64,000 nucleotides of DNA from Nitratireductor sp. B36 (lineage in GTDB: Bacteria; Pseudomonadota; Alphaproteobacteria; Rhizobiales; Rhizobiaceae), in contig NZ_JACKZY010000004.1 of the NCBI RefSeq assembly GCF_020833685.1, positions 310,001 through 374,000 on the forward strand, written 5' to 3'. The translations under genes and the position numbers were made by a program. The first letter of the stretch is position 1; every line of letters starts with the position of its first letter. The notes beneath the pieces were generated by a model. The model was given only the letters and a program-made list of their open reading frames with translations, ran no database searches and was not told where the DNA came from. Below are positions 47,679 to 61,798 of the stretch, piece by piece.

Positions 47679-49007
47679 CTACTGTCCTCCGAGCGCGGCG
47701 TCGACGGCGTGGCCCAGTTTCTCGACGATCAGATCAATGGTTTCCCCGTCGACATTGTAAGGTGGTGCCAGAAGAATGTGATCGCCTGAGGTCCCGTCGA
47801 TCGTGCCGCTCCCCGGGTAGATCAGGAGCCCCGTCTCCAGGGCGCTTTTCTTGATCGCAGCGCCGATTTTCCGGCCGGGCGAGAAAGGCACCTTGGTATC
47901 GCGATGCTCGACCAGTTCGATGGCCTGAAGCAGGCCGCGCCCCCGAACATCCCCGACATGCGGGTGATTGCCGAACCGGGCGAGCAATCGGTCGCGCAAC
48001 TGAGCGCCGCGTACAGTCACATTGTCGAGCATAGCATCATCACGAATGATCTGCTGAACGGCAAGCGCGGCAGCACAGGCCAGCGGATGGGCTGAATAGG
48101 TGTGCCCATGCACGAAACTGCCGCTGCCTTTGGTAATGGTCTCGTAGACGTTGCCCGAGCACATGACGGCAGCAATGGGCTGGTATCCGCCGCCAAGACC
48201 CTTGGCGAGTGTCAGGATGTCGGGCACCACATTTTCCTGCTCGCAGGCGAGAAAGCTGCCGGTTCTGCCGGAGCCGCACATCACCTCATCCAGAATGAGA
48301 AGCACCCCGTAGCGATCACAGATTTCCCGGATTTTCTGAAAGTAGCCCTTTTCGGCGGCAACCGCGCCTGCGGTCGCTCCCACGACCGTTTCGGCCAGAA
48401 AGGCGATGACATTTTCAGGGCCGAGTTCCCTTATCTTGTCTTCAAGGAGGTTGGCGGCACGGTTTGCATAGTCATCCGCGCTTTCACCAGCATGGGCATA
48501 TCGGTAGGCGAAGCAGGGCTCGATCTTGGGTTCTTCGAGCAGGAACGGGGCATAGGGTTTTCGCCGTGGCGGATTGCCCCCGACCGAGAGCGCGCCCAGC
48601 GTGTTGCCGTGGTAGCTCTGGTGCCGGGAGATCACCAGTCTGCGCGAGGGCTCGCCGCGCTCGACATGATACTGCCGCGCCATCTTGATCGCCGCTTCGA
48701 TCGCTTCGGAGCCGCTGCCGACGAGATAGACCTTGTCGAGGGGAAGCGGCGTCGCGGCGCACAGATGGTCGGCGAGTGCCTCGGCCGCACTGGAGGTGAA
48801 GAAGCTGGTATGCGCATAGCTGATCTGCGCCATCTGCTGCTGAATGGCTTCAAGAACACGCACATCGCCATGCCCGATACAGGACACGGCAGCGCCACCG
48901 CAGGCATCGATATAGCGCTTGCCGGTTTCGTCGGTGATGTAGGCGCCGCTCCCCCCGATAGCGACCGGAAGCGGGTTGCCAGGGGAGCGGTGAAAAACAT
49001 GGGTCAT
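47679..49007 (-). CDS. Class III aminotransferase
   Basis: A 442-aa omega-type PLP aminotransferase: YLVGSGSEAIEAAIKMAR, HQSYHGNTLGALSVGG, LILDEVMCGSGRTG and PLP-lysine LAKGLGGGYQPI. Start chosen at ATG 49007 (MTHVFHRSPGNPLPV) over 49061. It is the last gene of a leftward operon with an RpiR regulator, TRAP transporter and M81 peptidase, and probably takes the amino group from the released product. Confidence 0.88.
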   Translation of the reverse strand: MTHVFHRSPGNPLPVAIGGSGAYITDETGKRYIDACGGAAVSCIGHGDVRVLEAIQQQMAQISYAHTSFFTSSAAEALADHLCAATPLPLDKVYLVGSGSEAIEAAIKMARQYHVERGEPSRRLVISRHQSYHGNTLGALSVGGNPPRRKPYAPFLLEEPKIEPCFAYRYAHAGESADDYANRAANLLEDKIRELGPENVIAFLAETVVGATAGAVAAEKGYFQKIREICDRYGVLLILDEVMCGSGRTGSFLACEQENVVPDILTLAKGLGGGYQPIAAVMCSGNVYETITKGSGSFVHGHTYSAHPLACAAALAVQQIIRDDAMLDNVTVRGAQLRDRLLARFGNHPHVGDVRGRGLLQAIELVEHRDTKVPFSPGRKIGAAIKKSALETGLLIYPGSGTIDGTSGDHILLAPPYNVDGETIDLIVEKLGHAVDAALGGQ

Positions 49008-49020
49008 TCGGAGGTCTCTG

Positions 49021-49905
49021 TTATCGTGCGCGCCGATGCGCGTGGTAGGAGCCGGAGGCATAAAGCTGTTCTTCGATGGTGCCGATGCGTTCCATCGCTG
49101 TGTCCTGAAGCTCTGTCAGCATGGCAGCGGCAAGCCCTTCGACAACGCCGACAGCCGAAATCACGGAGGGAAAAAAGGACGGGCTCTCGGCTGAGAAGAG
49201 CAGGCTGGTCGATGCATGGGGTTGCAATGGTGTGGCGCGGCTGTCGCTCAGTGAAACCAGTTTCGCGCCGGAAGAACGAATGCCTTCAGCCACCATATCG
49301 ATCTCGCGCGCATAGGGCTGGAAATTGATGGACAGAACCGCATCGCGCTCCGTCAGCATGGCAAGGTCGGCCACCAGCGAAGAGCCCTCGCTGCCGAGAA
49401 GCTCCACATTGGGGCGCAGCATCTTGCACAGATAGGTGAAGGTCAGCCCCGGCCCCCGGCAACTCATGAAGGCGGCGACGTATAGCCGCTCGGCATGGGC
49501 GAGTGTTTTGGCGGCAGAAGCGATATCTGCAGTCGAATTGCTCTCCAGCGCGTAGGCAAGGCTTGCCTCCTGCGCCTTGAAGGTCTCGGCCAGAAGGCCG
49601 CTGCCCTTGTCCTGCTTCACCGCTTCCACGGCCTTGTCGGCATAGCGCGCGGGCCCGGTCCTGAAACTTTCGGCATAAACGGCACGCAATTGCGACCAGT
49701 CGGCGAAATCCAGCGTGCGCGCCAGGCGCACGAGTGTGGCCGGTGCAACGCCGGCACGGTTGGCGATTTCGCGCATGGAGAGCAGCACGACGTCGTCCGG
49801 GTGATCGATCAGGTAGCGGGCTCCATCGGCAAGCCGGCGGGGCAGCGTTTCAATCTGCGAGATCATGCGCTGTGTCAGCGCTTCAAGGTCTGTCATCTCT
49901 GCCAT
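49021..49905 (-). CDS. MurR/RpiR-family regulator
   Basis: A 294-aa regulator with an N-terminal HTH_6 domain (DVVLLSMREIANRAGVAPATLVRLARTLDF) and a C-terminal SIS domain that usually binds a phosphosugar, though many members sense other compounds. It sits inside the TRAP/M81 operon, 4 bases after dctM, so it likely controls its own transcription. Confidence 0.87.
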   Translation of the reverse strand: MAEMTDLEALTQRMISQIETLPRRLADGARYLIDHPDDVVLLSMREIANRAGVAPATLVRLARTLDFADWSQLRAVYAESFRTGPARYADKAVEAVKQDKGSGLLAETFKAQEASLAYALESNSTADIASAAKTLAHAERLYVAAFMSCRGPGLTFTYLCKMLRPNVELLGSEGSSLVADLAMLTERDAVLSINFQPYAREIDMVAEGIRSSGAKLVSLSDSRATPLQPHASTSLLFSAESPSFFPSVISAVGVVEGLAAAMLTELQDTAMERIGTIEEQLYASGSYHAHRRAR

Positions 49906-49909
49906 CCTT

Positions 49910-51214
49910 TTACCCGCTTATCAGGCTGGGCAACCACAGGACGGTTGCCGGAAATGCGATGAGTATGGCGACGGTCACCACATCGGCAAGCAGGAACCAT
50001 CCCACGCCGCGGAAGACATCGCTGATGGACACTTTATCGGCGACGACATTCTTGATGACGAAGACATTGAGACCCACTGGCGGTGTGATGAGCCCGATTT
50101 CCAGATATTTGGTGATCATGACACCGGCATAGATCAGGCTGATGTCCGCGGTCTCGAAGATCGGCAGGAGAACCGGCAGGGTGAGCAGCATCACCCCGAT
50201 GGGATCGAGGAACATGCCGAGCACCAGATAGATCAGCGACACCGCGATGATGATCAGAAGCGGCGACATGTCCTCTCCGATAAGCCCCTGCACATAGTCG
50301 GGGAAGCCCGCAAAGGCGAAAAGCCGGGTCAGAAGCGCTGCGGCCACCGCTATGAGGAAGATTGCGGAGGTGGAGCGGATCGTCTCGAACGCAGCCGCCT
50401 TCAGCGCTTCCCAACTCAGTGTGCGCTTGGCAAAGCCGATGGCGATGGAGGCAAGGGCACCGATGGCGCCAGCTTCGGTTGCGGAGAAAAGCCCGGCAAA
50501 GATGCCGCCGAACACGGTGATGACGAGTAGGAAGAGCGGCCATGTCTCGCCCAGAGCAAGAAACCGCTCGCGCCAGTCGACGCTCGTCTCACGCGGCGCA
50601 AGCGCCGGGTTGTGCTTGACGCGAAGCAGGATCATCAGGCCGTACATGAGCGCGGTCAGAAGGCCCGGAATCACGGCCCCGATGAAAAGCTCGCTGACGG
50701 GGACCTCGGCAAAAACGGCATAGAGAAGCAGAATGGTGCTCGGCGGAATGAGCGAGCCCATCGTGCCGGCGGCGGCAATCGTGCCTACGGCAAGCTTGGC
50801 GTCGTAGCCACGGTCGAGCATGGCCGGCACGGCAATCTTGCCCATCGCGGCTGCACAGGCGACGGACGAGCCGGTGACGGAGGAAAAGAGCGCGGCCCCA
50901 CCCACCGAGGAAATGGCGAGCCCGCCGGGCAGAAAATTCAACCAGGCGCGGGCGACGCGGAAAAGCCCGTCTGTCAGTCCGGCGGAAAAGCACACATAGC
51001 CCATGAACAGAAACATGGGGATGGCGCTCAGGCTCCAATGGGCGGCGAAGGCATGGGGAACCGAGCGCATGACGCCCCAAGTCGCGCGTTCTCCCACAAG
51101 GAGATACATGCCGACGATTGCGACGAGGCCCAGCGCTGCAGCAACGGGAACGCGCAGCGCAAGGAGGATCATGAGCGCACCGAGCGCCCAGTAGACAAGG
51201 GTGATGCTATCCAC
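49910..51214 (-). CDS. TRAP transporter large permease, DctM type
   Basis: A 434-aa, about 12-helix membrane subunit. Characteristic segments: AAALGLVAIVGMYLLVG, SSVTGSSVACAAAMGKIAVPAM, AAAGTMGSLIPPS and LIYAGVMITKYLEIGLITPPVGLNVFVIK. Start is GTG 51214 with AAGGG upstream; the ATG at 51289 lies within dctQ. It moves the solute using a sodium or proton gradient. Confidence 0.92.
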   Translation of the reverse strand: MDSITLVYWALGALMILLALRVPVAAALGLVAIVGMYLLVGERATWGVMRSVPHAFAAHWSLSAIPMFLFMGYVCFSAGLTDGLFRVARAWLNFLPGGLAISSVGGAALFSSVTGSSVACAAAMGKIAVPAMLDRGYDAKLAVGTIAAAGTMGSLIPPSTILLLYAVFAEVPVSELFIGAVIPGLLTALMYGLMILLRVKHNPALAPRETSVDWRERFLALGETWPLFLLVITVFGGIFAGLFSATEAGAIGALASIAIGFAKRTLSWEALKAAAFETIRSTSAIFLIAVAAALLTRLFAFAGFPDYVQGLIGEDMSPLLIIIAVSLIYLVLGMFLDPIGVMLLTLPVLLPIFETADISLIYAGVMITKYLEIGLITPPVGLNVFVIKNVVADKVSISDVFRGVGWFLLADVVTVAILIAFPATVLWLPSLISG

Positions 51215-51224
51215 GGTAAGGCCC

Positions 51225-51740
51225 TTACTGGTCGCTGTTTTGTGTCTGGGATGAAGCGGCGCGCGAAATCGCGCCAGCAGCTCGGACAAGGCAGAGAAGT
51301 GCCGTCAGGAAACCCGCCACCGGCAGGAAAAAGCGCGGCGGCCATGTGATGACGGGGATCATGCCGACAATGAACTCGCCCTGACGATAGGCGCGCAGGG
51401 CCTGTTCAAACCCCGCATAGGCGATCAGTGCCAGAAACGCGCCGAAGCAGATCAGCGCAAAGGCATCGAGCACCGCCTGTGCCCTTGGTCCCAGCCCCTG
51501 ATAGAAAAGATCGACGGCAATGTTCTCGTTGCGCCATTCGACATTGAGCAACGGAAGAAAGATGAGAGCCGGCATCCACCAGTCCGACACGATCTCCAGT
51601 GTGGAGGGCATCGGCTTGCCAAAGAGGTAGCGGCCGCCGACATCCAGACAGATCTGGAACATCATGACGACGAGACACAGGCTGGCCAGAAACGCCAGCA
51701 GGCGGCCGATCCGGCCCAGAAAGAGATCGATGGTTTGCAT
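51225..51740 (-). CDS. TRAP transporter small permease, DctQ type
   Basis: A 171-aa protein with four hydrophobic helices and the DctQ pattern FLASLCLVVMMFQICLDVGGR then PSTLEIVSDWWMPALIFLPL. It is between dctP and dctM, as in most TRAP operons. Confidence 0.9.
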   Translation of the reverse strand: MQTIDLFLGRIGRLLAFLASLCLVVMMFQICLDVGGRYLFGKPMPSTLEIVSDWWMPALIFLPLLNVEWRNENIAVDLFYQGLGPRAQAVLDAFALICFGAFLALIAYAGFEQALRAYRQGEFIVGMIPVITWPPRFFLPVAGFLTALLCLVRAAGAISRAASSQTQNSDQ

Positions 51741-51800
51741 GGTGGATCCCGGCTGATCAAAAGCGTGGGCGGCACCCGCAAGGGCACCGCCGTAACAGGC

Positions 51801-52916
51801 TCAAAGGCCGTATTCGGTTTCAGAAAGCTTGTCGAAGATCTCTGTCTTCATGCGCTCTGCGAGGGCTTCGTCGGAAAGGCCGGATGCGGTGATCTCTTCC
51901 CACTTGGCCAAAGCCGCCTGATAGCTCTCGATCAGCGATTGCGCGTCGTCGACGCCATAGACGTCCTTCGCTTTTGTCACAATCGCGGAAACGTCCTGGC
52001 TGTTGAAGTTGGCGATTTCGGCTTCAAGCGCTTCCGGCTTGTCCAGAACCTTCATGCCGTGATCGGCCGCTTCGGCTTTCGCCTCTTCATTCTGCGCGAC
52101 ATAGGCATTGGTCGTCGCAACGATGGCCTCTGCCATCTTGTCGAGCATGACGCGACGGTTCTCGGGGGTGAGCTCCGCCCAGCTGTCCTTGTTGAAGGCG
52201 AGCAGCGGTCCGGAATTGTAGACGCCGAAGCTGCCGAGCGTGATCGTGTCGGCAACATCCCAGAGCGAGTGTGTTTTCAGCGAAGCGGCGGGCTGCATGG
52301 CAACATCGATGACACCCTTGTCGAGCGCTTCATACATCTCCGAGCTGGAGGTGTGGACGACCGTCGCGCCGGCCTCACCGATCCAGCGATCCCACGCGCC
52401 ACCGGGCGAACGAACACGCTTGCCGGCGATGTCCGCCGTCTTGCCGATCTCGCTCTTGCTGATCAGCGCATAGGGTGCGGTGGCGTAGCTGCCGGTATAG
52501 ACCACGTTCTGCTTTGAAAATTCTGCGATGCAGGGCGCGCAGTTCAACAGAGTGAACTCGGTGACCGCCGCCGCGACGGCAAGGGAGTTGCCGCTCAACA
52601 TGGCAAGCTCTGCCACAAGCTGGCTGGTGGGCAGCTGTGCCGGGTTGTAGGTGAGCGCGAGAACGGAGGCGTCGGCCACCCCATCGCCCAGACCGGTCAG
52701 GGTTTCCTTGCCGCCCAGAAGTGCGCCGCCTGAGACGAGGTTGAAGGTCACTTCGCCATTGGATGCTTCGGCCACCGCCGGGAAATATGTTTCATAGCCA
52801 GCGAAAATCGTCGGGTGCGAAGGAGCGACCCAGGAGCTGACGGTGAGTTCGATCGCAGCGGCGCTGGCCGTGCTGGCGGCCAGAGCGAGAATGGCGGCGG
52901 TGATGGTTTTCTTCAT
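51801..52916 (-). CDS. TRAP transporter solute-binding protein, DctP type
   Basis: A 371-aa exported protein: signal peptide to about residue 20 (ending STASAAA), then a DctP fold with AGKRVRSPGGAWDRWIGEAGA and TSSSEMYEALDKGVIDVAMQP, which holds the usual carboxylate-binding arginine. Ligand unknown. Its ATG overlaps the M81 peptidase stop by 4 bases. Confidence 0.9.
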   Translation of the reverse strand: MKKTITAAILALAASTASAAAIELTVSSWVAPSHPTIFAGYETYFPAVAEASNGEVTFNLVSGGALLGGKETLTGLGDGVADASVLALTYNPAQLPTSQLVAELAMLSGNSLAVAAAVTEFTLLNCAPCIAEFSKQNVVYTGSYATAPYALISKSEIGKTADIAGKRVRSPGGAWDRWIGEAGATVVHTSSSEMYEALDKGVIDVAMQPAASLKTHSLWDVADTITLGSFGVYNSGPLLAFNKDSWAELTPENRRVMLDKMAEAIVATTNAYVAQNEEAKAEAADHGMKVLDKPEALEAEIANFNSQDVSAIVTKAKDVYGVDDAQSLIESYQAALAKWEEITASGLSDEALAERMKTEIFDKLSETEYGL

Positions 52917-54400
52917 GTTACCCTCTGTTCTTTCAGGTTGAAGCGCTCCCGAGGCACATTTCGGAAGGGCAGTTTTGAAACGTCAGCCATGGCTGGCCCC
53001 AGCGTGTCGCAGGACTGGATGACGTCGAACCGGTTGCCGAATGCAGCCCGGAAATGGTTTTTCGCTTTGGCGAGCAGCACGGGCACCTGGTCGATCTCAA
53101 TGCCGTGCAGACGGAAATAGGCACTGTCATTGGGAGACTGGCAGCCCGTGGTCACGATGACCCGAAGGTTTCCGACGCGCAGCAGAGCTGTCGGACCGAG
53201 ATCCACCTTCATGCCCCGCTCCATGGCGTCCTCATTCTGGAAACGGCCATTGGTGATGCGCAGGACTTCAGCCCGGCAGGCGACCGGCACTCCGAAACGG
53301 ACGTCGAGCCTTGCGCCGAGGCTGATGTCGAGCTCTGCACCAATGCCCGCACGATGGGTTTCCGCCACGATCTCCGGCGCGGCGAAAAAGGCGAACACGC
53401 TGCCATCCGGCAATTCCGTATTCATCGCGGCGCGGAAGAGACCCGGCGTGTCGCCAATGCCTCCGGAAAGGGGATTGTCGGCAGGTTCCAGGATCGCGAC
53501 GCGATTCCCATCGGCCCACGGACGGCCTGACAGCACCGCTTCGGCCGAGGGAAGGTCAGGCTGAAAGCGAGCCTGCGTGCCTCGCATATAGCCGGCAACA
53601 TGATCCGCCAGAGCCTGCCCCTGATATTTGTCCTCGCAGGTCACCAGAACGCCGGCATTGGCCTGCGGAACGTCAGCGTATGCGAAACTGGCAAAGGGGT
53701 AGGCGACCGGAAAGAGAGACTTGCCGCCGATCTTGATGCCCGCCGCCCGCGCTTCGTTTTCGATGTCCAGCATGGGACCTGGCGCATCTGTGCGCATGTT
53801 GAAGCTCGGCAGGATCCTGTCGATCGTCTTCAAGAGCACGTGGCTCTTCACCCCGTCCCTGATGATATGCGCAAGCATGTCCAGCGCATCGCGCGCGGCC
53901 TCAGCCATGTCAATGTGAGGATAGGTCCGGTAAACGGTAGCGGCATTGAGCATGTCGGCAAGCTTCGGCGCGATGCAGGCATGCATGTCGAAGGAAGCGG
54001 CAATCGGCAAGTCCGGGAAGCGGCGGCGAAGACCCCCAACAAGCGTCGTTTCGGGATCCGGATCAACCGTGCCGATACAGGCACCGTGAAGCGACAGGTA
54101 CAGACCGTCGATGCCTTCCAGTGCCGGGTCTTCGGCGATCTCGGCCGTCAGCTGGTCGAGAAGTTCCTGATCCACGGGGCCTGCCGGAGCGGCCGAAGCG
54201 CAGCGCGAGAAAACCAGCTCCACATCGTCGCGCAGCTCCGCCCAGGCAATTGCTCCGCCAGGTTCCGTTGCCGTGCCGCGATAATGCGCGATGCAGCTCT
54301 CTCCGCGGAACCATTCCCGTGCCTCAAAATGCTCCAGTCGTGTCTGGCAGACCGAAAAGGAGTTTGCTTCGTGCCAAAGGCGGGCGATGCCGATACGCAT
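52913..54400 (-). CDS. M81-family metallopeptidase (MlrC-like)
   Basis: A 495-aa protein of the M81/DUF1485 family whose named member MlrC opens linear microcystin peptides in Sphingomonas. Seen: MRIGIARLWHEANSF, DGLYLSLHGACIG, ASFDMHACIAPKLADMLNAA, YRTYPHIDMAEAA and the C-terminal DSAYFRLHGIEIDQVPVL. It lacks a signal peptide, so it would act in the cytoplasm on solutes imported by the TRAP system. First gene of the leftward operon. Confidence 0.88.
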   Translation of the reverse strand: MRIGIARLWHEANSFSVCQTRLEHFEAREWFRGESCIAHYRGTATEPGGAIAWAELRDDVELVFSRCASAAPAGPVDQELLDQLTAEIAEDPALEGIDGLYLSLHGACIGTVDPDPETTLVGGLRRRFPDLPIAASFDMHACIAPKLADMLNAATVYRTYPHIDMAEAARDALDMLAHIIRDGVKSHVLLKTIDRILPSFNMRTDAPGPMLDIENEARAAGIKIGGKSLFPVAYPFASFAYADVPQANAGVLVTCEDKYQGQALADHVAGYMRGTQARFQPDLPSAEAVLSGRPWADGNRVAILEPADNPLSGGIGDTPGLFRAAMNTELPDGSVFAFFAAPEIVAETHRAGIGAELDISLGARLDVRFGVPVACRAEVLRITNGRFQNEDAMERGMKVDLGPTALLRVGNLRVIVTTGCQSPNDSAYFRLHGIEIDQVPVLLAKAKNHFRAAFGNRFDVIQSCDTLGPAMADVSKLPFRNVPRERFNLKEQRVT

Positions 54401-54672: not shown

Positions 54673-57309
54673 GTGGAAACACCGCAATCGCCTGCCTTAC
54701 GGTCCTATCATTCATGGATCGCCAATGAGACGCTGGAGGATTACTCTCTGCGCTACGCCGCGCGGTCCTTCCGGCGCTGGTCTCCGTTCGTCATCGCCAA
54801 CACTGCGCTGGGCGGCATCTCGTTTCTGGCGCTGGAGGCCATCGGCGGAGCGATCACACTGAGCTACGGCTTCGCCAATGCGTTTCCCGCCGTTCTCATC
54901 ACCTGCCTGTTTGTCTTCGTCACGAACCTGCCCATCGCCTATTATTCGAGCCGTTACAACATCGATATGGATCTGCTCACCCGCGGGGCGGGATTCGGCT
55001 ATATCGGCTCCACTATCACGTCGCTGATCTATGCGACCTTCACCTTCATCTTTTTCGCGCTCGAGGGCGCGATCATGGCGCAGGCGCTGAAGCTCTTTGC
55101 GGATGTGCCGCTGGTGCTGGGCTACATTATCTCGTCGCTCGTCATCATTCCCATCACCTTCATGGGCGTGACGATGATCAGCAAGTTGCAGATGGTCACC
55201 CAGCCCATCTGGATCGCCATGCTGCTTGCGCCCTTCATCTACATCGCGGTCGGCCATCCCGAAACGCTCGATCAGTGGATGGCGTTTGCCGGCAGCGAAA
55301 CGCCGGATGGCGGCTTCGATGTGCTCGCCTTCGGCTCGGCCATCGGTGTCCTGTGCGCGCTTTCGATACAGATCGGCGAGCAGGTGGACTATCTGCGCTT
55401 CCTGCCCGACAAGACGCGCGAAAACCGTTGGCGCTGGTGGGCGGCGGTCATCTCCGCCGGTCCCGGCTGGATCGTGGTCGGCGGTTTCAAGATTCTCTGC
55501 GGCAGCCTTCTGGCCGTGCTCGCGGTCTCTGCCGGCCTGTCGCCATCGACGGCGCTCGAGCCGATCCACATGTATATCAAGGCCTATGAATATGTGAGTG
55601 ACGACCCCCGCACCGTGCTGGCGCTGGCGGCGATCTTTGTCCTCATCTCTCAGGTCAAGATCAACGTGACAAACGCTTATGCCGGCTCGCTCGCCTGGTC
55701 CAATTTCTTCTCGCGCGTCACACATTATCACCCTGGCCGCGTGGTCTGGCTGATCTTCAACATCCTGATCTCTCTGCTTTTGATGCTGCTCGGCATCTTC
55801 CAGACACTGGAGCTGGTGCTGGCGGTCTATTCGGTCATCGCCGCCGCGTGGATCGGCTCCATCTTTGCCGATCTCGCCATCTTGAAGCCGATGGGCATCA
55901 GCCCGCCTTTCACCGAGTTCAAGCGCGCCTATCTCTACGATTTCAATCCGGTGGGTTGCGGGTCGATGGCGTTTGCTTCCCTCTTCGCGCTCATCTGTTT
56001 CATGGGTGGATTTGGCGATCTGGCCGAAGCCTACGCCGCTCCCATCGCCTTCTTCACCGCGCTTTCAGGCGCCGTTCTGATAGGCGTGGTCACACGCGGC
56101 CGCTATTATCTCGCCCGCCCGCGTGCTCCGCTCGCCGAGCCCGAAAAACCGGTGGTGCGGTGCGAAATCTGCGAGCTGGAGTACGAGCGACCGGACATGG
56201 TGCATTGCACCTTTTATCAGCGCCCGATCTGCTCGCTTTGCTGCAGTCTCGATTCCCATTGCCACGATGTCTGTAAATCGTCGGGCACGGTTCTGGAGAC
56301 CTCGCGTTCACGGTATTTCGGACGCGCCCTTCGCAGCAAGATCGCGCCGCGGATGACACAACGGCTGCTCAAGGTGAGCGGCGTCCTTTTCTCGCTCGCC
56401 GTGATGACAGCTGCGGTATTCCTTCTCACCTACCGGCTGATAGAGCCCACCGCGCTTCAGCCCCATGTGGAAAGCGGTGCGCTTTTGCTGCGGGTGTTCC
56501 TGGCGCTTCTTCCGCTGCTTGCCATTGGCGCATGGTGGATCGTTCTTTCGCATGAAAGCCGGGAACTGGCCGAGCGCGATCTGGTCACCTCGCTTGAAAA
56601 GCTTCGCCAGGCGCAGCAGGAACTCGCCTCAAACGAGCGTCTGGCGGCAATCGGTCAGATCACCGCCACGGTCAGCCATGAGCTGCGCAATCCGCTGGGC
56701 ACAATGGTCACCTCCACCGACATTCTGCGGCGCTCACTCAAGAACGCGGATGAACCCGTCACCGGCGAATTGCAGCGCTTGCAGCGCAATGCCTGGCGCT
56801 GTGTGCGCATCATCGAGGATCTTCTGGATTTCTCGCGCAAGCATGCGCCCGTCATGTCGCCCGTGGCCATCGACCGTTGGGTCAAGCAGCAGTTGAGCGA
56901 AGAGGATCACGAGATCGCGCATCTCATCACGCTCAAGCTCGATGCCGGTTGCGATGTGCTTGCCGATGCCGAGCGCCTGCGCCAGGCCTTCTCCAATGTT
57001 CTGCAGAATGCAGCGCAGGCCTGCGAGGAGCGCGGGAAGCAGAGCGGTCAGATCATCATTTCCACACAACGCCTGCATGACCGGGTCTACCTGTCGGTCT
57101 CCGATAATGGCGGCGGCATGTCTCAGGATGTGGCAGAGCGCGTGTTCGAGCCACTCTTCAGCACCAAGGCGTTTGGCGTTGGGCTTGGCATGCCACTCGT
57201 CAAGCGTATCGTGGAGCAGCATGGCGGCGACGTGCTCATTGAGAGTCAGAAGGGTGTCGGCACCACCGTGTCGCTCGTTCTGCCATGCGCGGGAGAGCAT
57301 GCACCATGA
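54673..57309 (+). CDS. NCS1-type transporter fused to sensor histidine kinase
   Basis: An 878-aa fusion. Residues about 15-480 resemble a nucleobase:cation symporter-1 (cytosine permease type) with about 12 helices (RRWSPFVIANTALGGISFLAL, GYIGSTITSLIYATF). Residues 497-534 form a cysteine-rich unit, CxxC-x11-C-x7-CxxCC-x5-CHxxC, probably zinc-binding. Two more helices follow (about 570-625), then HisKA with His669 (TVSHELRNPLGTM) and an ATPase domain (NVLQNAAQACEE, DNGGGMSQD, GVGLGMPLVKRIVEQHGG). GTG 54673 is chosen; GTG 54649 is possible. It probably senses, and may also import, a nucleobase-like or amide solute. ATGA overlap with the next gene. Confidence 0.88.
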   Translation: METPQSPALRSYHSWIANETLEDYSLRYAARSFRRWSPFVIANTALGGISFLALEAIGGAITLSYGFANAFPAVLITCLFVFVTNLPIAYYSSRYNIDMDLLTRGAGFGYIGSTITSLIYATFTFIFFALEGAIMAQALKLFADVPLVLGYIISSLVIIPITFMGVTMISKLQMVTQPIWIAMLLAPFIYIAVGHPETLDQWMAFAGSETPDGGFDVLAFGSAIGVLCALSIQIGEQVDYLRFLPDKTRENRWRWWAAVISAGPGWIVVGGFKILCGSLLAVLAVSAGLSPSTALEPIHMYIKAYEYVSDDPRTVLALAAIFVLISQVKINVTNAYAGSLAWSNFFSRVTHYHPGRVVWLIFNILISLLLMLLGIFQTLELVLAVYSVIAAAWIGSIFADLAILKPMGISPPFTEFKRAYLYDFNPVGCGSMAFASLFALICFMGGFGDLAEAYAAPIAFFTALSGAVLIGVVTRGRYYLARPRAPLAEPEKPVVRCEICELEYERPDMVHCTFYQRPICSLCCSLDSHCHDVCKSSGTVLETSRSRYFGRALRSKIAPRMTQRLLKVSGVLFSLAVMTAAVFLLTYRLIEPTALQPHVESGALLLRVFLALLPLLAIGAWWIVLSHESRELAERDLVTSLEKLRQAQQELASNERLAAIGQITATVSHELRNPLGTMVTSTDILRRSLKNADEPVTGELQRLQRNAWRCVRIIEDLLDFSRKHAPVMSPVAIDRWVKQQLSEEDHEIAHLITLKLDAGCDVLADAERLRQAFSNVLQNAAQACEERGKQSGQIIISTQRLHDRVYLSVSDNGGGMSQDVAERVFEPLFSTKAFGVGLGMPLVKRIVEQHGGDVLIESQKGVGTTVSLVLPCAGEHAP

Positions 57310-58505
57310 GCGATCGCGAGATCGACCTTCCCGCAGAGGTCATCGGAGAACACCCGCTGCGTGAGACCACGCCGGCGGAAGAACACGGTGTTCTCATCGT
57401 CGACGATGACGAGGATTTTGCCGCAAGCCTTTCCGGCCTTTTGAAGATCGAGGGGTTCAGGGTCGCAGTCGCGCACGACCCTGAGGGCGCGCTTGCCGTT
57501 CTTGAGGAGGCGCGGATCGCGGTGGCCCTGGTCGATGTGCGGCTGGGCACGGGCAATGGTGTCGATCTCGTGCGCCAGATTCGTCAACGTGATCCTGACC
57601 TTGTTTGCGTAATGGTCACCGCCTATGCGTCCATTGATACGGCCGTGGAGGCGTTGCAGGCCGGCGCATATGATTACCTTTGCAAGCCGTTTCACAGCGA
57701 AGACCTGCTGGCAACGCTCGCCCGCTGCTTTGAACGCATCCGACTTCTGGAAGAAAAGCGGCTCGCTGCCGAGCGGCTGGGGCAAAAACAGCGCATGGAG
57801 GCCATGGGTCAGCTCACCAGCGGCATAGCGCACGACTTCAACAACATTCTCGCCGTGCTTCTGAGCAATCTGCGCTGGCTGGAGCAGCGGCTGGGCGATC
57901 AGCCGGAACTGGCAGAGATCGTGGCGGATGCGCTGGACGCCACGCAATCGGGATCAGAGCTGACCGATCGGCTTCTCCAGTTCGGGCGTCAGAACGCGAA
58001 GGATGTTGCAGTGGTGCAGCTTGGCGAGGCCTTGCCCCCGTTGATGCGTATGCTTGCGCGCACGCTTGGAGAGACGATCACGATCTCGCTTGAGGTAGCC
58101 GATGGATTGAACAGCGTACTCATTCCCGCCGGTCAGCTGGAGCCCAGCCTGCTCAACCTCGCGCTGAATGCGCGCGATGCGATGCCGGGCGGCGGAAGCC
58201 TGTATTTTGAAGCGTCGAACGTAATCGTCCGTCCGGAGGACGCGCGGGTTGCTTCTGGGCTTTTGCCGGGCCGCTATGTGCTGCTGTCGGTGCGCGACAC
58301 AGGCCATGGCATGCCGGTGGCGGTGCGCCGCCGCGCGCTCCAGCCCATGTTCACCACCAAGCCGCCAGGGCAGGGCAGTGGTCTCGGCTTGTCGATGGTG
58401 GATGGTTTCGTGCGCCAGGCCGGTGGGCGTCTCGGCATTCTCAGCACGCCGGGCAAAGGGACCAGCGTCAATTTATATTTGCCGGCGCACTATTCCTCGG
58501 ACTGA
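57306..58505 (+). CDS. Receiver-first hybrid histidine kinase
   Basis: A 399-aa soluble protein with a receiver domain first (VLIVDDDEDF, Asp77 in LVDVRLGTGNG, Lys in DYLCKP), a short coiled-coil linker rich in Glu/Arg, then a kinase core with His176 (SGIAHDFNNILAVLLSNL) and HATPase motifs LLNLALNARDAMPGGG, DTGHGMP and GQGSGLGLSMVDGFV. It has no DNA-binding domain, so it likely receives phosphate from the fused transporter-kinase and passes it on. Its 3' end overlaps the opposing OmpR-type gene by 16 bases. Confidence 0.88.
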   Translation: MSDREIDLPAEVIGEHPLRETTPAEEHGVLIVDDDEDFAASLSGLLKIEGFRVAVAHDPEGALAVLEEARIAVALVDVRLGTGNGVDLVRQIRQRDPDLVCVMVTAYASIDTAVEALQAGAYDYLCKPFHSEDLLATLARCFERIRLLEEKRLAAERLGQKQRMEAMGQLTSGIAHDFNNILAVLLSNLRWLEQRLGDQPELAEIVADALDATQSGSELTDRLLQFGRQNAKDVAVVQLGEALPPLMRMLARTLGETITISLEVADGLNSVLIPAGQLEPSLLNLALNARDAMPGGGSLYFEASNVIVRPEDARVASGLLPGRYVLLSVRDTGHGMPVAVRRRALQPMFTTKPPGQGSGLGLSMVDGFVRQAGGRLGILSTPGKGTSVNLYLPAHYSSD

Positions 58506-59227
58506 GGCGCGAACATGTAACCGACCCCGCGAATGGTCTTGATGAATTGCGTGTCACGGGCATTGTCGCGCAATTTCCGCCGGATCTTGCCAATCATCAC
58601 ATCGATGCTGCGATCGTAAGGGTTCCAGTTGCGATTGGCGACGATATCGAGGATCTGCTCACGGGAAAGCACACGTCCTCGCCGCTCTACAAGTGCGGCC
58701 AGAAGCTGGAATTCCTGGCTCGTCAGCCGCACCGTGTCACCTCTCGGAGAGGCGAGATGATGGCGCGAGGGGTCAAGTTGCCAGCCGGCAAAGCACATGA
58801 TTGGAGAACGGCTTTTCTCCTGGGGTTCCGGCACGCTGATGCGTCTCGCAAATCGGCGCATGACAGTGCGGATGCGGGCCAGCAGTTCACGTGGCTCAAA
58901 CGGTTTGGTCACGTAGTCGTCCGCGCCCAGTTCAAGGCAGACCACCTTGTCGATCGTGCTGTTTTTGCCGGAAAGCATGATCAGCGGCAGGTCGTGCTGG
59001 GCGCGCAGTGAGCGCGCCAGCGAAACACCGTCTTCGCCTGCAGGAAAGGTAAGATCGAGAATAACCAGATCGAAATCCTCGTCCGCCATGGCCCGCCGCA
59101 TGGCGCGGCCGTCCTCGGCGCTTGTGACGGCATAGCCTTCGCTAGCGAGGAAGCGCTGAAGAAAGCGACGAAGACGCTGATCATCATCGACCACAAGAAC
59201 GCGATGCTTTTCGTCCGAGATCCCCAT
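58490..59227 (-). CDS. OmpR-family response regulator
   Basis: A 245-aa regulator: receiver with VLVVDDDQRL, phosphoacceptor Asp58 (LVILDLTFPAGEDG) and Lys in DYVTKP, then a winged helix with LTSQEFQLLAALVERRGRVLSREQILD and RSIDVMIGKIRRKLRD plus IRGVGYMF. It is convergent with the two kinases and divergent from fmdA, which puts its promoter region next to the repeats at 59440-59487. Likely the output of the phosphorelay. Confidence 0.9.
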   Translation of the reverse strand: MGISDEKHRVLVVDDDQRLRRFLQRFLASEGYAVTSAEDGRAMRRAMADEDFDLVILDLTFPAGEDGVSLARSLRAQHDLPLIMLSGKNSTIDKVVCLELGADDYVTKPFEPRELLARIRTVMRRFARRISVPEPQEKSRSPIMCFAGWQLDPSRHHLASPRGDTVRLTSQEFQLLAALVERRGRVLSREQILDIVANRNWNPYDRSIDVMIGKIRRKLRDNARDTQFIKTIRGVGYMFAPQSEE

Positions 59228-59606
59228 GGCTTATACGATAGTCGCAAACGGTTGCGCAGGTCGAGATGGGAACGAACGCCGATCGGTCATAAAAATTGAG
59301 CCATGGTCTTCCTGCTCGCGAAAAGCCCTCATCCGCCGTGAGGGTCATCTGGGCTGAAGCTTCAAGCAACCTGCTGAAAATAATTCCTTATTTCGAACTG
59401 TAGAGCGTCAGGCAGCTTCTGCGCGGCCTTCGAGAACGGTTACAAAAAATTACAAATCGGGCGTCCTCCAGAGCCAATCGGGTTACAGTCCGAACCTAAT
59501 CTTCTCCGGCACGGTTTCGTCCGGCTGCATCTTGTTGCCGGGCGCAAAAATGACGGGGGGCTCAAAATGGAAACCTCCGACTGGCCGTTCAAGAGGAGGA
59601 GACCCA
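59228..59606. other. Divergent regulatory region between OmpR regulator and fmdA
   Basis: A 379-base gap without a gene. It carries three TTACA motifs at 59440, 59450 and 59483 and an AGGAGGAGA ribosome-binding site just before fmdA. No clear sigma54 promoter is seen. Confidence 0.6.
59440..59457 (+). promoter_or_regulatory. Direct repeats TTACAAA, candidate OmpR-type site
   Basis: TTACAAA occurs twice with a 10-base period, and TTACAG follows 33 bases later, so all three sit nearly on one helix face. Tandem repeats with helical spacing are the usual binding pattern for OmpR/PhoB regulators, one of which is encoded next door. Confidence 0.5.
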
Positions 59607-60833
59607 ATGCCTAAAACAGTGTTTTCTGTCGATCTCAACAAGGCACCAGAGGATCAGGCGATCAAGACGCACAATCGCTGGCATCCCGACATTCCGATGG
59701 TTGAGACTTTCAAACGCGGTGAAGTGTTCCGTGTCGAGTGCTACGACTGGACCGGTGGTCAGATCGGCAACAATGACAGCGCCAACGACGTGCGTGATGT
59801 TGATTTGACCCGCGTTCACTATCTGAGCGGTCCGTTCGGTTTCGAGGGAGCAGAGCCAGGAGATCTGCTTGTTGTCGACATTCTCGATATCGGCGCTTTG
59901 CCAAACTCCGAATGGGGCTTCAACGGCCTGTTCGCCAAGGAGAATGGCGGCGGCTTCCTGACGGAGCATTATCCGAACGCAACCAAGTCATGCTGGGATT
60001 TCCAGGGGATCTACACGACCTCGCGCCACATTCCGGGCGTGCGGTATCCGGGCATCATTCACCCGGGGCTGATCGGCTGTCTGCCCGATCATGCGCTTCT
60101 TGCCGAAGCGAACCGCCGTGAGGAGGAGCTCGTTTCTACCGATCCGAACCGCGTCCCGCCGCTGGCCGCACTGCCTTATTCCGACACGGCGCTCATGGGC
60201 CAGATGTCGGGTGATGCAGCGCGCAAGGCGGCTGCCGAAGCGTGGCGCACCGTGCCGCCGCGCGAACATGGCGGCAATTGCGACATCAAGAACCTGTCGC
60301 GTGGCTCCAAGGTTTATTTCCCTGTCTACGTGAAGGGTGGCGGTCTCTCCATGGGCGACATCCACTTCTCGCAGGGCGATGGCGAAATCACCTTCTGCGG
60401 CGCCATCGAAATGGCCGGCTGGATCGATCTGAGCGTCGATGTCATCAAGGGCGGCATGGCCAAATACGGCGTCACCAACCCGATCTTCAAGCCGAGCCCG
60501 ATCGATCCGCATTTCGACGATTATCTGATCTTCGAGGGCATCTCGGTCGATGAGCACACGGGCGAACAGTATTATCTGGACGCGCATGTGGCCTATCGCC
60601 GGGCCTGCCTCAACGCGATCGAGTATCTGAAGAAGTTCGGTTACACGGGCGAGCAGGCCTACAGCATCCTCGGCACAGCGCCGGTGGAGGGGCGAATAGC
60701 CGGCATCGTGGACATACCGAACGTGTGCGCAACGCTGGCCATTCCGACAGCGATTTTCGATTTCGATATCAATCCGAACTCGACCGGGCCGACCAAACAG
60801 GTCTCCGGCGTGGACGTCGCGCGAACCACTTGA
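59607..60833 (+). CDS. fmdA: Formamidase / acetamidase
   Basis: A 408-aa FmdA_AmdA enzyme that hydrolyses formamide or short amides to ammonia and the acid. Typical segments: FSVDLNKAPEDQ, HNRWHPDIPMVETFKRGE, GGNCDIKNLSRGSKVYFPVYV, GDIHFSQGDGEITFCGAIEMAG and a C-terminal DIPNVCATLAIPTAIFDFDI. ATG 59607 follows AGGAGGAGA. It heads the fmdA-amiS-fmdB gene set and would supply nitrogen. Confidence 0.94.
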   Translation: MPKTVFSVDLNKAPEDQAIKTHNRWHPDIPMVETFKRGEVFRVECYDWTGGQIGNNDSANDVRDVDLTRVHYLSGPFGFEGAEPGDLLVVDILDIGALPNSEWGFNGLFAKENGGGFLTEHYPNATKSCWDFQGIYTTSRHIPGVRYPGIIHPGLIGCLPDHALLAEANRREEELVSTDPNRVPPLAALPYSDTALMGQMSGDAARKAAAEAWRTVPPREHGGNCDIKNLSRGSKVYFPVYVKGGGLSMGDIHFSQGDGEITFCGAIEMAGWIDLSVDVIKGGMAKYGVTNPIFKPSPIDPHFDDYLIFEGISVDEHTGEQYYLDAHVAYRRACLNAIEYLKKFGYTGEQAYSILGTAPVEGRIAGIVDIPNVCATLAIPTAIFDFDINPNSTGPTKQVSGVDVARTT

Positions 60834-60918: not shown

Positions 60919-61431
60919 ATGCTGCTCGGTTTTGCCTTGCTATACGTCGGCGCCGTCCTGTTTCTCAACGGGCTGTGGCTGATGGGAAAGATCGACGACA
61001 AGGAGATTGTCGTCATCAATGTCGTGTCCGGCTTCGTCACGCTTTGTGTTGCACTGGCGTCGGCGTTCGGGACTGCGGCGGATGCTGCGTCGGTCAAGTC
61101 GGCGGCGCTGACACTGCTGTTCACCACCACCTATCTCTGGGTCGCCTACAACCGTGTGGTTGCGGTGGATGGCCGCGGGCTCGGCTGGTTCAGCCTGTTC
61201 GTGGCAATCACCGTCGTGCCTATCGCGATTGAAGGGCTGGCCGGCGCGCAGAGCTTCACCGACACCTGGCTCGGGCTCAACTGGGCCATCTGGGCGGTGC
61301 TCTGGTTCATGTATTTCCTGCTGCTTGCCTTGAAGCGTCCGATCCTGCAGGCCACCGCGGTCGTCACGCTCCTCACCGGCATAGTCACCGGCTGGCTGCC
61401 GGGCTTCCTGCTGCTTCAGGGAATGCTCTGA
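60919..61431 (+). CDS. amiS: AmiS/UreI-type amide or urea channel
   Basis: A 170-aa protein with six hydrophobic helices, e.g. LGFALLYVGAVLFLNGLW and AIWAVLWFMYFLLLALK, and the family features of the H. pylori urea channel UreI and Pseudomonas AmiS. It would let short amides or urea cross the inner membrane for FmdA. GGAGGAA lies before the ATG. Confidence 0.9.
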   Translation: MLLGFALLYVGAVLFLNGLWLMGKIDDKEIVVINVVSGFVTLCVALASAFGTAADAASVKSAALTLLFTTTYLWVAYNRVVAVDGRGLGWFSLFVAITVVPIAIEGLAGAQSFTDTWLGLNWAIWAVLWFMYFLLLALKRPILQATAVVTLLTGIVTGWLPGFLLLQGML

Positions 61432-61492: not shown

Positions 61493-61798
61493 ATGCCGCT
61501 TTACAATTACGTTTGCGAAGATTGCGGACCTTTCGACGAGTGGACCTCCATGGCGGAGGCGGGCAATGCATGCGCCTGCCCAAGCTGCCAGACACCGAGC
61601 AATCGCGATGTGGCCGCACCGAGCCTCAGCCTCATGAACGGCACACTCCGGCGCGCGCTTGCCCGCTCGGAAAAAAGCGGCAGCGAGCCGCGTGTGGTCA
61701 AGAAGGAGCATCTGGCCGGGTGCGGCTGCGCGCTCTGCAAGGTCGGCAAGAAAGGCCCACCCTCGCCACGCAAGAAATGGATGATCGGCCATTGCTGA
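61493..61798 (+). CDS. fmdB: FmdB-family zinc ribbon protein
   Basis: A 101-aa protein with a short N-terminal zinc ribbon: MPLYNYVCEDCG, then CACPSC about 20 residues on, and a second cysteine cluster near the C-terminus (GCGCALC). FmdB proteins accompany formamidase genes and were proposed as regulators of fmdA in Methylophilus. Start at ATG 61493 after GGAG. Confidence 0.88.
   Translation: MPLYNYVCEDCGPFDEWTSMAEAGNACACPSCQTPSNRDVAAPSLSLMNGTLRRALARSEKSGSEPRVVKKEHLAGCGCALCKVGKKGPPSPRKKWMIGHC

Follow-up and report, generated by a model that had tools for sequence, protein, structure and literature searches.

The locus analyzed here lies in a window of 64,000 nucleotides from Nitratireductor sp. 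B36 (the window being the whole stretch of DNA studied), and its central gene fuses a transporter-like module to a complete histidine kinase in a single open reading frame (Table 1). A DHp domain with a phospho-acceptor histidine and full ATP-binding boxes was recognized by Pfam and motif reading both in this protein and in the REC-kinase encoded next to it, and a 4-bp ATGA overlap (57306-57309) joins the two genes. The REC-kinase gene is convergent with that of an OmpR-type response regulator, overlapping it by 16 bp, and fmdA and a gene for an AmiS/UreI channel follow the regulator gene. The original prediction, made from the sequence alone, had described one chain of transporter, cysteine-rich module, two helices and kinase, translationally coupled to a receiver-first kinase, convergent with an OmpR-type partner and adjacent to formamidase and amide-channel genes. 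The single chain is upheld by the open reading frame, Pfam and the AlphaFold model, the ATGA overlap and the leading REC domain agree with the coupling, and the gene order bears out the rest.

Table 1. Features of the sensor kinase locus and the adjoining fmdA genes (positions in the window).
Feature	Position	Strand	Basis
Sensor kinase: NCS1-like module, Cys-rich cap, two helices, histidine kinase	54673-57309	+	ORF of 878 aa, GTG 54673 to TGA 57309; HisKA and HATPase_c matches; NCS1 fold
NCS1-like membrane module (residues 1-484)	54673-56124	+	AlphaFold model, fold search, hhalign
Cys-rich cap (residues 497-534)	56161-56274	+	CxxC-x11-C-x7-CxxCC-x5-C-x3-C
Two predicted helices, cap-kinase linker (residues 561-630)	56353-56562	+	AlphaFold model, helices 561-589 and 601-652
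HisKA (661-725) and HATPase_c (765-872) of sensor kinase	56653-57288	+	Pfam, 54.4 and 86.8 bits, both above cut-off; motifs H669, N-box 775, G-boxes 811 and 835
REC-HisKA-HATPase kinase, 399 aa	57306-58505	+	Pfam; motifs D77, H176, N- and G-boxes
OmpR-type response regulator, REC and Trans_reg_C	58490-59227	-	Pfam: PF00072 97.5 bits, PF00486 89.3 bits
Candidate regulator site TTACA-N5-TTACA, 10-bp period	59440-59454	+	Footprint across loci
Third TTACA (59483-59487) and TANNNT -10-like element (59497-59502)	59483-59502	+	Alignment of 33 intergenic regions
fmdA, formamidase	59607-60833	+	PF03069; NF045496 757.9 bits (cut-off 500)
amiS/ureI-type amide or urea channel	60919-61431	+	PF02293, 200.9 bits
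FmdB-like zinc-ribbon ORF (named by eye)	61493-61798	+	FmdB tblastn matches at the same place in close relatives

The fusion is more than a chance event, since 54 further loci found in one scan encode relatives over most of its length, one of them (L032) with a broken reading frame. The family was aligned in several sets: A1 with 51 of the 54 loci (all except L023, L028 and L032), A2 with 27 of these loci plus nine plasmid copies, and A4 with 44 of 53.

No Pfam transporter family matched the membrane part, and Transp_cyt_pur was absent from the window protein at E 0.1 and from all 37 rows at E 10, a setting at which HMMER filters drop most weak matches; its naming thus rests on profiles and fold. 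Searches of PDB sequences with the window fragment and its profile likewise returned nothing at E 10, and the NCBIfam cytosine permease model matched 15 of 37 rows (best 1.8e-7), the window row not being among them. When compared with a profile of 11 NCS1 proteins, the module profile gave an hhalign value of 95.9% (E 6e-9, 358 columns, 17% identity) versus 0.1% for SSS and 13.4% for APC, and a larger profile gave 95.7, 0.2 and 6.4, respectively. Block means of the AlphaFold model are mostly 76-97 over residues 41-480 but fall to 52-67 at 151-170, 331-380 and 411-420. A fold search with it was led by CodB (Z 31.1, 394 aligned, 3.7 A) and included Mhp1 (Z 27.3, 26.8, and 23.6), at 14-19% identity to both; the best non-NCS1 row reached Z 22.4, just 1.2 under the last Mhp1 row, and SLC5-type structures were listed from the choline transporter CHT1 (Z 21.4) downward. 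Profile-profile comparison and fold search therefore support the predicted NCS1 relationship, and in the proposed check against NCS1 structures the module did not fail to align. An SLC5 (SSF) module was considered and rejected (no PF00474 match, hhalign only 0.1-0.2%). Fifty module positions are invariant across 93 rows. Among the conserved residues, Lys329 (93/93) sits in the profile alignments on the TM8 TTN stretch of Mhp1, which we take to hold the Na2 site.

The module is followed by a cap whose eight cysteines are all invariant in 52 of 52 aligned rows and whose motif recurs in each of the 56 fused proteins of the phylum survey. Among 142 alphaproteobacterial genomes searched, this domain was seen solely with the NCS1-like module. 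No catalogued family in the PDB or family libraries fits it well: Prok-RING_1 matched weakly in 3 of 20 rows (best E 0.0075), zinc-finger fragments were retrieved over profile positions 2-13 (best E 0.021), and the family libraries also returned weak RING, zinc-finger and unrelated matches. Because these matches are weak or fragmentary, zinc binding by the cap is a guess on our part. The linker helices are modeled at low confidence (pLDDT 41-72), as is the cap together with the helices when modeled separately (pLDDT 68.9, pTM 0.38), and the Pfam matches include no STAC domain.

Among 398 sampled Pseudomonadota genomes, 55 matched the NCS1-like module, three of them weakly. This survey gave 61 places, of which 57 loci were fetched; the four omitted were the locus of this study and G311, G114 and G269, which are short or weak. 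Amide or urea genes adjoin the module in 53 of these 57 loci and in 48 of 54 from the genome-contig scan, and clustering of all neighboring ORFs points to the same context; AmiS is nearby in 48/54 loci of the scan and UrtA in 45/57 of the phylum sample. The neighborhood, first described as unusual, is thus the rule for this module family. Outputs differ by clade, comprising the OmpR-type regulator with a REC-kinase (as here), a hybrid kinase with a LuxR-type regulator, or REC-EAL. Near the fused copies of Vibrio profundi (L046) and of L013, fmdA was not detected within about 20 kb, nor was it in 22.7 kb at two Sinorhizobium meliloti loci (L002 and L003), where only a UrtA relative (41%) was found. 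In Methylovirgula (L010), a kinase-less module with the same Cys-rich cap is flanked on one side by a fused copy and its regulator and on the other by an aliphatic amidase gene.

Upstream of fmdA, a tandem TTACA-N5-TTACA repeat is conserved across loci and co-occurs with the OmpR-type regulator: it is present in 37 of 38 loci with both the regulator and fmdA, versus none of the 12 fmdA loci lacking the regulator. Exact matches numbered 37 across 56 loci (1,085,099 bases), every one of them upstream of fmdA and on its strand, and six Markov simulations produced none. At L042 the second repeat reads TTACG. In two Paracoccus loci (L004 and L005), fmdA flanks the kinase gene on its opposite side, and there too the site accompanies fmdA. 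The footprint alignment comprised 33 of 37 regions, the four exceeding 480 bases being covered by the count over loci, and the third TTACA is kept in 31 of the 33. In the 4.19-Mb genome of the organism itself, GTTACA-N5-TTACA occurs once and TTACA-N5-TTACA twice, compared with four matches to a reversed control pattern; the short pattern alone is therefore at chance level, and its weight comes from conservation and position. The OmpR rows form one clade in the tree, and thus site and regulator did not co-arise many times. In the first tree, the output label was set by default for L013, L028 and L040, at which no regulator was detected; a second tree without them gave the same result. Upstream of the kinase gene, the footprint (14 rows) gave scattered conserved positions only.

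We propose that the sensor kinase probably acts as a transceptor for an amide (or urea) and governs fmdA-amiS-fmdB via the OmpR-type regulator. The NCS1-like module would bind a small amide, most likely formamide in the OmpR clade and urea or related amides in sister clades, and the Cys-rich, probably zinc-binding cap and the two extra helices would transmit the module's movement to the DHp domain for autophosphorylation at H669. Whether by direct transfer or by way of the REC-kinase, the signal would arrive at the OmpR-type regulator, which would bind the tandem TTACA repeat and turn on the three genes, the direction of control that we infer. AmiS would admit the amide and FmdA would hydrolyze it to formate and ammonium. 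An amide had been among the signals originally suggested, and the recurrent amide and urea genes are in line with it. NCS1 proteins are known to bind nucleobases, hydantoins and allantoin; to our knowledge, formamide and urea are not among their ligands.

The gene linkage fits sensing of substrate, product or nitrogen status alike. It is possible, although we do not favor it, that the module still transports, importing amide or urea, with the kinase responding to flux or occupancy in the manner proposed for CbrA and histidine. The kinase-less Methylovirgula copy near an amidase is consistent with this, as is the histidine transport by CbrA reported in two papers (PMC7918813, PMC13022988). However, other uptake genes (AmiS in one set, UrtA in the other) lie near most loci; Lys329 on the TTN stretch might also argue against transport, but the kinase-less copy carries it too, so it is no mark of transport loss. 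It seems unlikely that the signal is a product (ammonium, formate) or nitrogen status and not the amide. Amide and urea breakdown genes both lead to ammonium, and this one shared product would explain both contexts; yet basal hydrolysis would be needed first, and the NCS1 pockets characterized to date accommodate neutral rings of larger size. Sensing of a nucleobase or hydantoin, which the NCS1 fold and its closest structures, CodB and Mhp1, would suggest, is very improbable. Amide and urea genes are the rule beside the module, which makes the cytosine or hydantoin signal first put forward less likely, and in an untargeted reading of the 40 largest neighbor clusters, many of them antisense frames or unidentified, no nucleobase gene was recognized.

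For the amide transceptor that we favor, the phosphate route can also be read in several ways. A true multi-step phosphorelay, from H669 via D77 and H176 to the OmpR-type regulator with the second DHp domain as phosphotransfer domain, appears doubtful. The translational coupling of the two kinases would suit it, as would the identity of D77 and H176 in 30 of 30 aligned rows, in which N284, N288, D331 and the G-box glycines are also identical. Pfam revealed no PF01627-type HPt among the proteins encoded in the window, in agreement with the original prediction that none is visible, and the sole trace is a PF10090 histidine phosphotransferase match inside the second kinase, below cut-off (17.5 versus 22.9 bits). 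On the other hand, the REC-kinase retains ATP-binding motifs, unlike a pure phosphotransferase, and at L038 the second kinase carries GAF and PAS domains of its own. In the LuxR clade, REC is attached to the first kinase and followed by an extension; an HPt was sought there, and no conserved histidine was found in the long forms among 53 aligned proteins, so the role of the receiver may be to modulate and not to pass phosphate on. Just as possible as a relay are a kinase gated by its REC domain and a phosphate sink.

More broadly, and with confidence a little short of even, we suggest that these proteins could form a widespread Pseudomonadota family of amide/urea receptors, with an NCS1-fold head, a lysine where Na+ may otherwise bind, a Cys-rich (probably zinc) coupler and three clade outputs, including a REC-gated second kinase. 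Kinases fused to transporters allow the conversion of a transport cycle into a signal to be studied directly, and few kinds have been characterized. If our interpretation is correct, this system would provide an NCS1-type sensor whose structural relatives are solved, whose linker domain is uncatalogued, whose ligand is likely to be small and whose candidate target site is short, with each signaling step testable within one operon. Regulation of formamide and urea use in many Pseudomonadota would then also have a candidate.

Among the papers listed by a literature search conducted mostly outside subscription journals, none was found to describe a sensor kinase of NCS1 type or a kinase serving formamidase; in PMC8399564, the term "NCS1 family" is confined to the title of a cited reference. 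Kinases fused to transporters, CbrA and Ks-Amt5 among them, are already known. According to PMC13022988, PMC7918813 and PMC9100948, CbrA, CrbS, RpuS and PrlS are SLC5(-STAC) histidine kinases, which share with the present protein an N-terminal LeuT-fold transporter module, a linker, a histidine kinase and metabolic target genes. In contrast to these, the sensor here is NCS1-like, has a Cys-rich cap with two extra helices where those kinases have STAC and PAS, and adjoins amide or urea genes. The ammonium sensor kinase Ks-Amt5 similarly combines a nutrient transporter fold, repurposed as a receptor, with a HisKA kinase, but differs, according to PMC5764959, in its Amt domain, trimeric state, lack of a linker module, ammonium ligand and regulator, which was not identified there. 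The module is closest in fold to the solved NCS1 structures of CodB and Mhp1, and its D[YF]xR stretch aligns with the NCS1 profile, whereas it lacks a Transp_cyt_pur match, is fused to a kinase and has Lys329 at the TM8 TTN stretch. As in OmpR/PhoB-family systems, the regulator combines REC with Trans_reg_C, and a direct repeat whose units recur at roughly each helical turn, here a candidate site recognized by sequence conservation, lies upstream of the presumed target.

The original prediction described a transporter-fused histidine kinase, a coupled REC-kinase and a convergent OmpR-type regulator, and the ORFs, domain matches and overlaps bear this out. The stop codon of the sensor gene and the start codon of the REC-kinase gene (399 aa, REC-HisKA-HATPase) overlap by 4 bp. 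Diverging from the OmpR regulator gene, 379 bp away, is fmdA-amiS, with an FmdB-like ORF in the same run.

Features of the sensor locus, with one further ORF of the same genome
Feature	Position	Strand	Remarks
DctP-type solute-binding protein, M81 metallopeptidase, RpiR-type regulator and class-III aminotransferase genes	47679-54400	-	directly upstream of the sensor gene
Sensor gene, 878 aa	54673-57309	+	HisKA and HATPase_c at C-terminal end
OmpR-type regulator gene	58490-59227	-	convergent with REC-kinase gene, 16-bp overlap
TTACA-N5-TTACA	59440-59454		exact in 32/33 aligned regions; locus L042 ends TTACG
Third TTACA	59483		in 31/33 aligned regions
TANNNT-like box	59497		33 aligned intergenic regions
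Second, shorter acetamidase/formamidase-family ORF, 359 aa	C1:1367954-1368862		separate contig

Pfam gave no transporter match for the membrane part of the sensor, either in the window protein or in the family rows. In profile-profile comparisons, a 37-member profile of this module (residues 1-484) matched 11 NCS1 proteins with 95.9% probability over 358 columns, versus 0.1% for an SSS set and 13.4% for an APC set; a 93-row profile gave 95.7 (NCS1), 0.2 (SSS) and 6.4 (APC). A fold search with an AlphaFold model built from 52 sequences (residues 1-653, mean pLDDT 73.6) returned CodB (Z 31.1) and Mhp1 (27.3, 26.8 and 23.6) at the top, the best non-NCS1 structure scoring 22.4. Both approaches uphold the earlier NCS1-type call, and we take the module to be a distant branch of the NCS1 fold, as predicted from profiles and model. 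Lys329, invariant in 93/93 rows (the kinase-less copy of L010 among them), aligns in both profile alignments to the TTN stretch of TM8, where Mhp1 binds Na+. Because of this position the module may be Na+-independent, which we treat as a lead only, since the alignment is gapped locally and residues 331-380 are poorly modelled.

A Cys-rich cap (residues 497-534) and two helices join the module to the kinase. The Cys of the cap motif, CxxC-x11-C-x7-CxxCC-x5-C-x3-C, are invariant in 52/52 rows, and the motif occurs in 56/56 fused proteins of the phylum survey; Pfam yielded at most weak RING or zinc-finger matches. Six matches to a cap profile were found in 142 alphaproteobacterial genomes, all adjoining an NCS1-like module, namely the window's own and modules 51-58% identical to it. 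A plasmid of Methylovirgula sp. HY1 carries an NCS1-like module without a kinase (L010:12652-14301), preceded by a fused sensor with its regulator and followed by an aliphatic amidase gene. This kinase-less copy ends in the same cap; thus, the cap accompanies the transporter unit.

The module profile (E 1e-5) matched 55/398 Pseudomonadota genomes, three of them (G114, G269, G311) weakly or by a short stretch only. Within the order it matched 86/297 genomes, including two (G269, G507) with a weak partial stretch only. On plasmids, tblastn recovered 506 records in which a single place covers 80% or more of the sensor protein, although near-identical megaplasmids recur among them. Of the 61 matching places of the phylum survey, 57 fell within open reading frames 888 aa or longer. 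The sensor is 97% identical to the N. aquibiodomus protein and 99% identical to a copy in a Nitratireductor MAG (L032:8983-10881), where the kinase frame stops early (633 aa), possibly through an assembly error; the window's genome is thus near Nitratireductor.

Amide or urea genes lay within about 9 kb in 53/57 loci fetched in the phylum survey (FmdA 37, UrtA 45, AmiE 18, UreC 10). The four exceptions are two truncated contigs (L172, L212), a locus with UrtA and UrtD and no UrtB (L207), and a kinase-less relative (L213). FmdA and AmiS were each found in 48 of the 54 query-centred scan loci, and the six loci missing these genes comprise four short pieces (L028, L040, L049, L060) and two that are not short (L013, L046). 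Among nine plasmid loci, FmdA occurred in six and urease in one, and two from Sinorhizobium meliloti had a distant UrtA relative only. Clustering of neighboring ORFs without preselected queries agrees with the amide/urea linkage. In Nitratireductor pacificus (L013), the fused sensor and REC-kinase are present; the OmpR regulator and fmdA were not detected in 21.8 kb.

Three output types accompany the sensors. REC-kinase with OmpR output, characteristic of the window's clade, was found in 36/54 scan loci, and long NCS1-HK-REC hybrids come with a REC-LuxR-type regulator, whose cluster occurs in 54/57 phylum-survey loci. REC-EAL (14) or REC-GGDEF-EAL (1) partners occur in beta- and gammaproteobacteria. 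In a FastTree phylogeny of 120 modules, where rows lacking a detected regulator carried no output label, 41 OmpR rows fall on one side of a branch (96), as do 60 LuxR rows (99), and 15 EAL rows require two changes; thus, output type follows lineage. In the beta- and gammaproteobacterial loci L052:11672-13000, L045:11714-13000 and L046:11690-13975, REC-EAL or REC-DUF3369-GGDEF-EAL proteins follow the sensor, their domains pointing to a putative c-di-GMP output; on visual inspection, the L052 EAL domain appears degenerate.

The regulator-fmdA intergenic regions (33 aligned) are mostly unconserved outside the TTACA elements and the TANNNT-like box. Across 56 loci there are 37 exact copies of the tandem repeat, each of them upstream of fmdA and on its strand; 33 lie within 600 bp and four at 1.4-1.6 kb (L039, L041, L043, L059), where an unassigned ORF of 386-485 aa intervenes. 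The loci are related, so these occurrences are not independent events. Of the 38 loci having both fmdA and the OmpR regulator, 37 carry the repeat, as do 0/12 fmdA loci without this regulator. In Paracoccus, fmdA lies past the opposite end of the kinase gene, and the site accompanies it. Six Markov simulation runs produced no occurrence. The window's own genome holds two exact matches, one being the tabulated site, whereas the reversed control pattern has four; for the longer GTTACA form there is a single match, and for its control none.

We propose that the NCS1-like module most likely binds an amide, a ligand we infer from the neighboring genes alone. The cap and helices would relay the module's change to the kinase, and the OmpR regulator, phosphorylated directly or via the REC-kinase, would bind the tandem TTACA repeat and switch on fmdA-amiS-fmdB. 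The REC, His and ATP-binding residues of the REC-kinase are identical in 30/30 rows, so a REC-gated kinase, a sink and a relay are all possible.

Our literature search found no paper on an NCS1-type sensor kinase or on a kinase for formamidase; the NCS1-type fused family is widespread and well placed for testing. Transporter-fused kinases of SLC5 types are already known (PMC13022988, PMC7918813, PMC9100948), and Ks-Amt5 is another (PMC5764959). In accompanying the transporter unit, the cap is loosely comparable to STAC in CbrA-type kinases.
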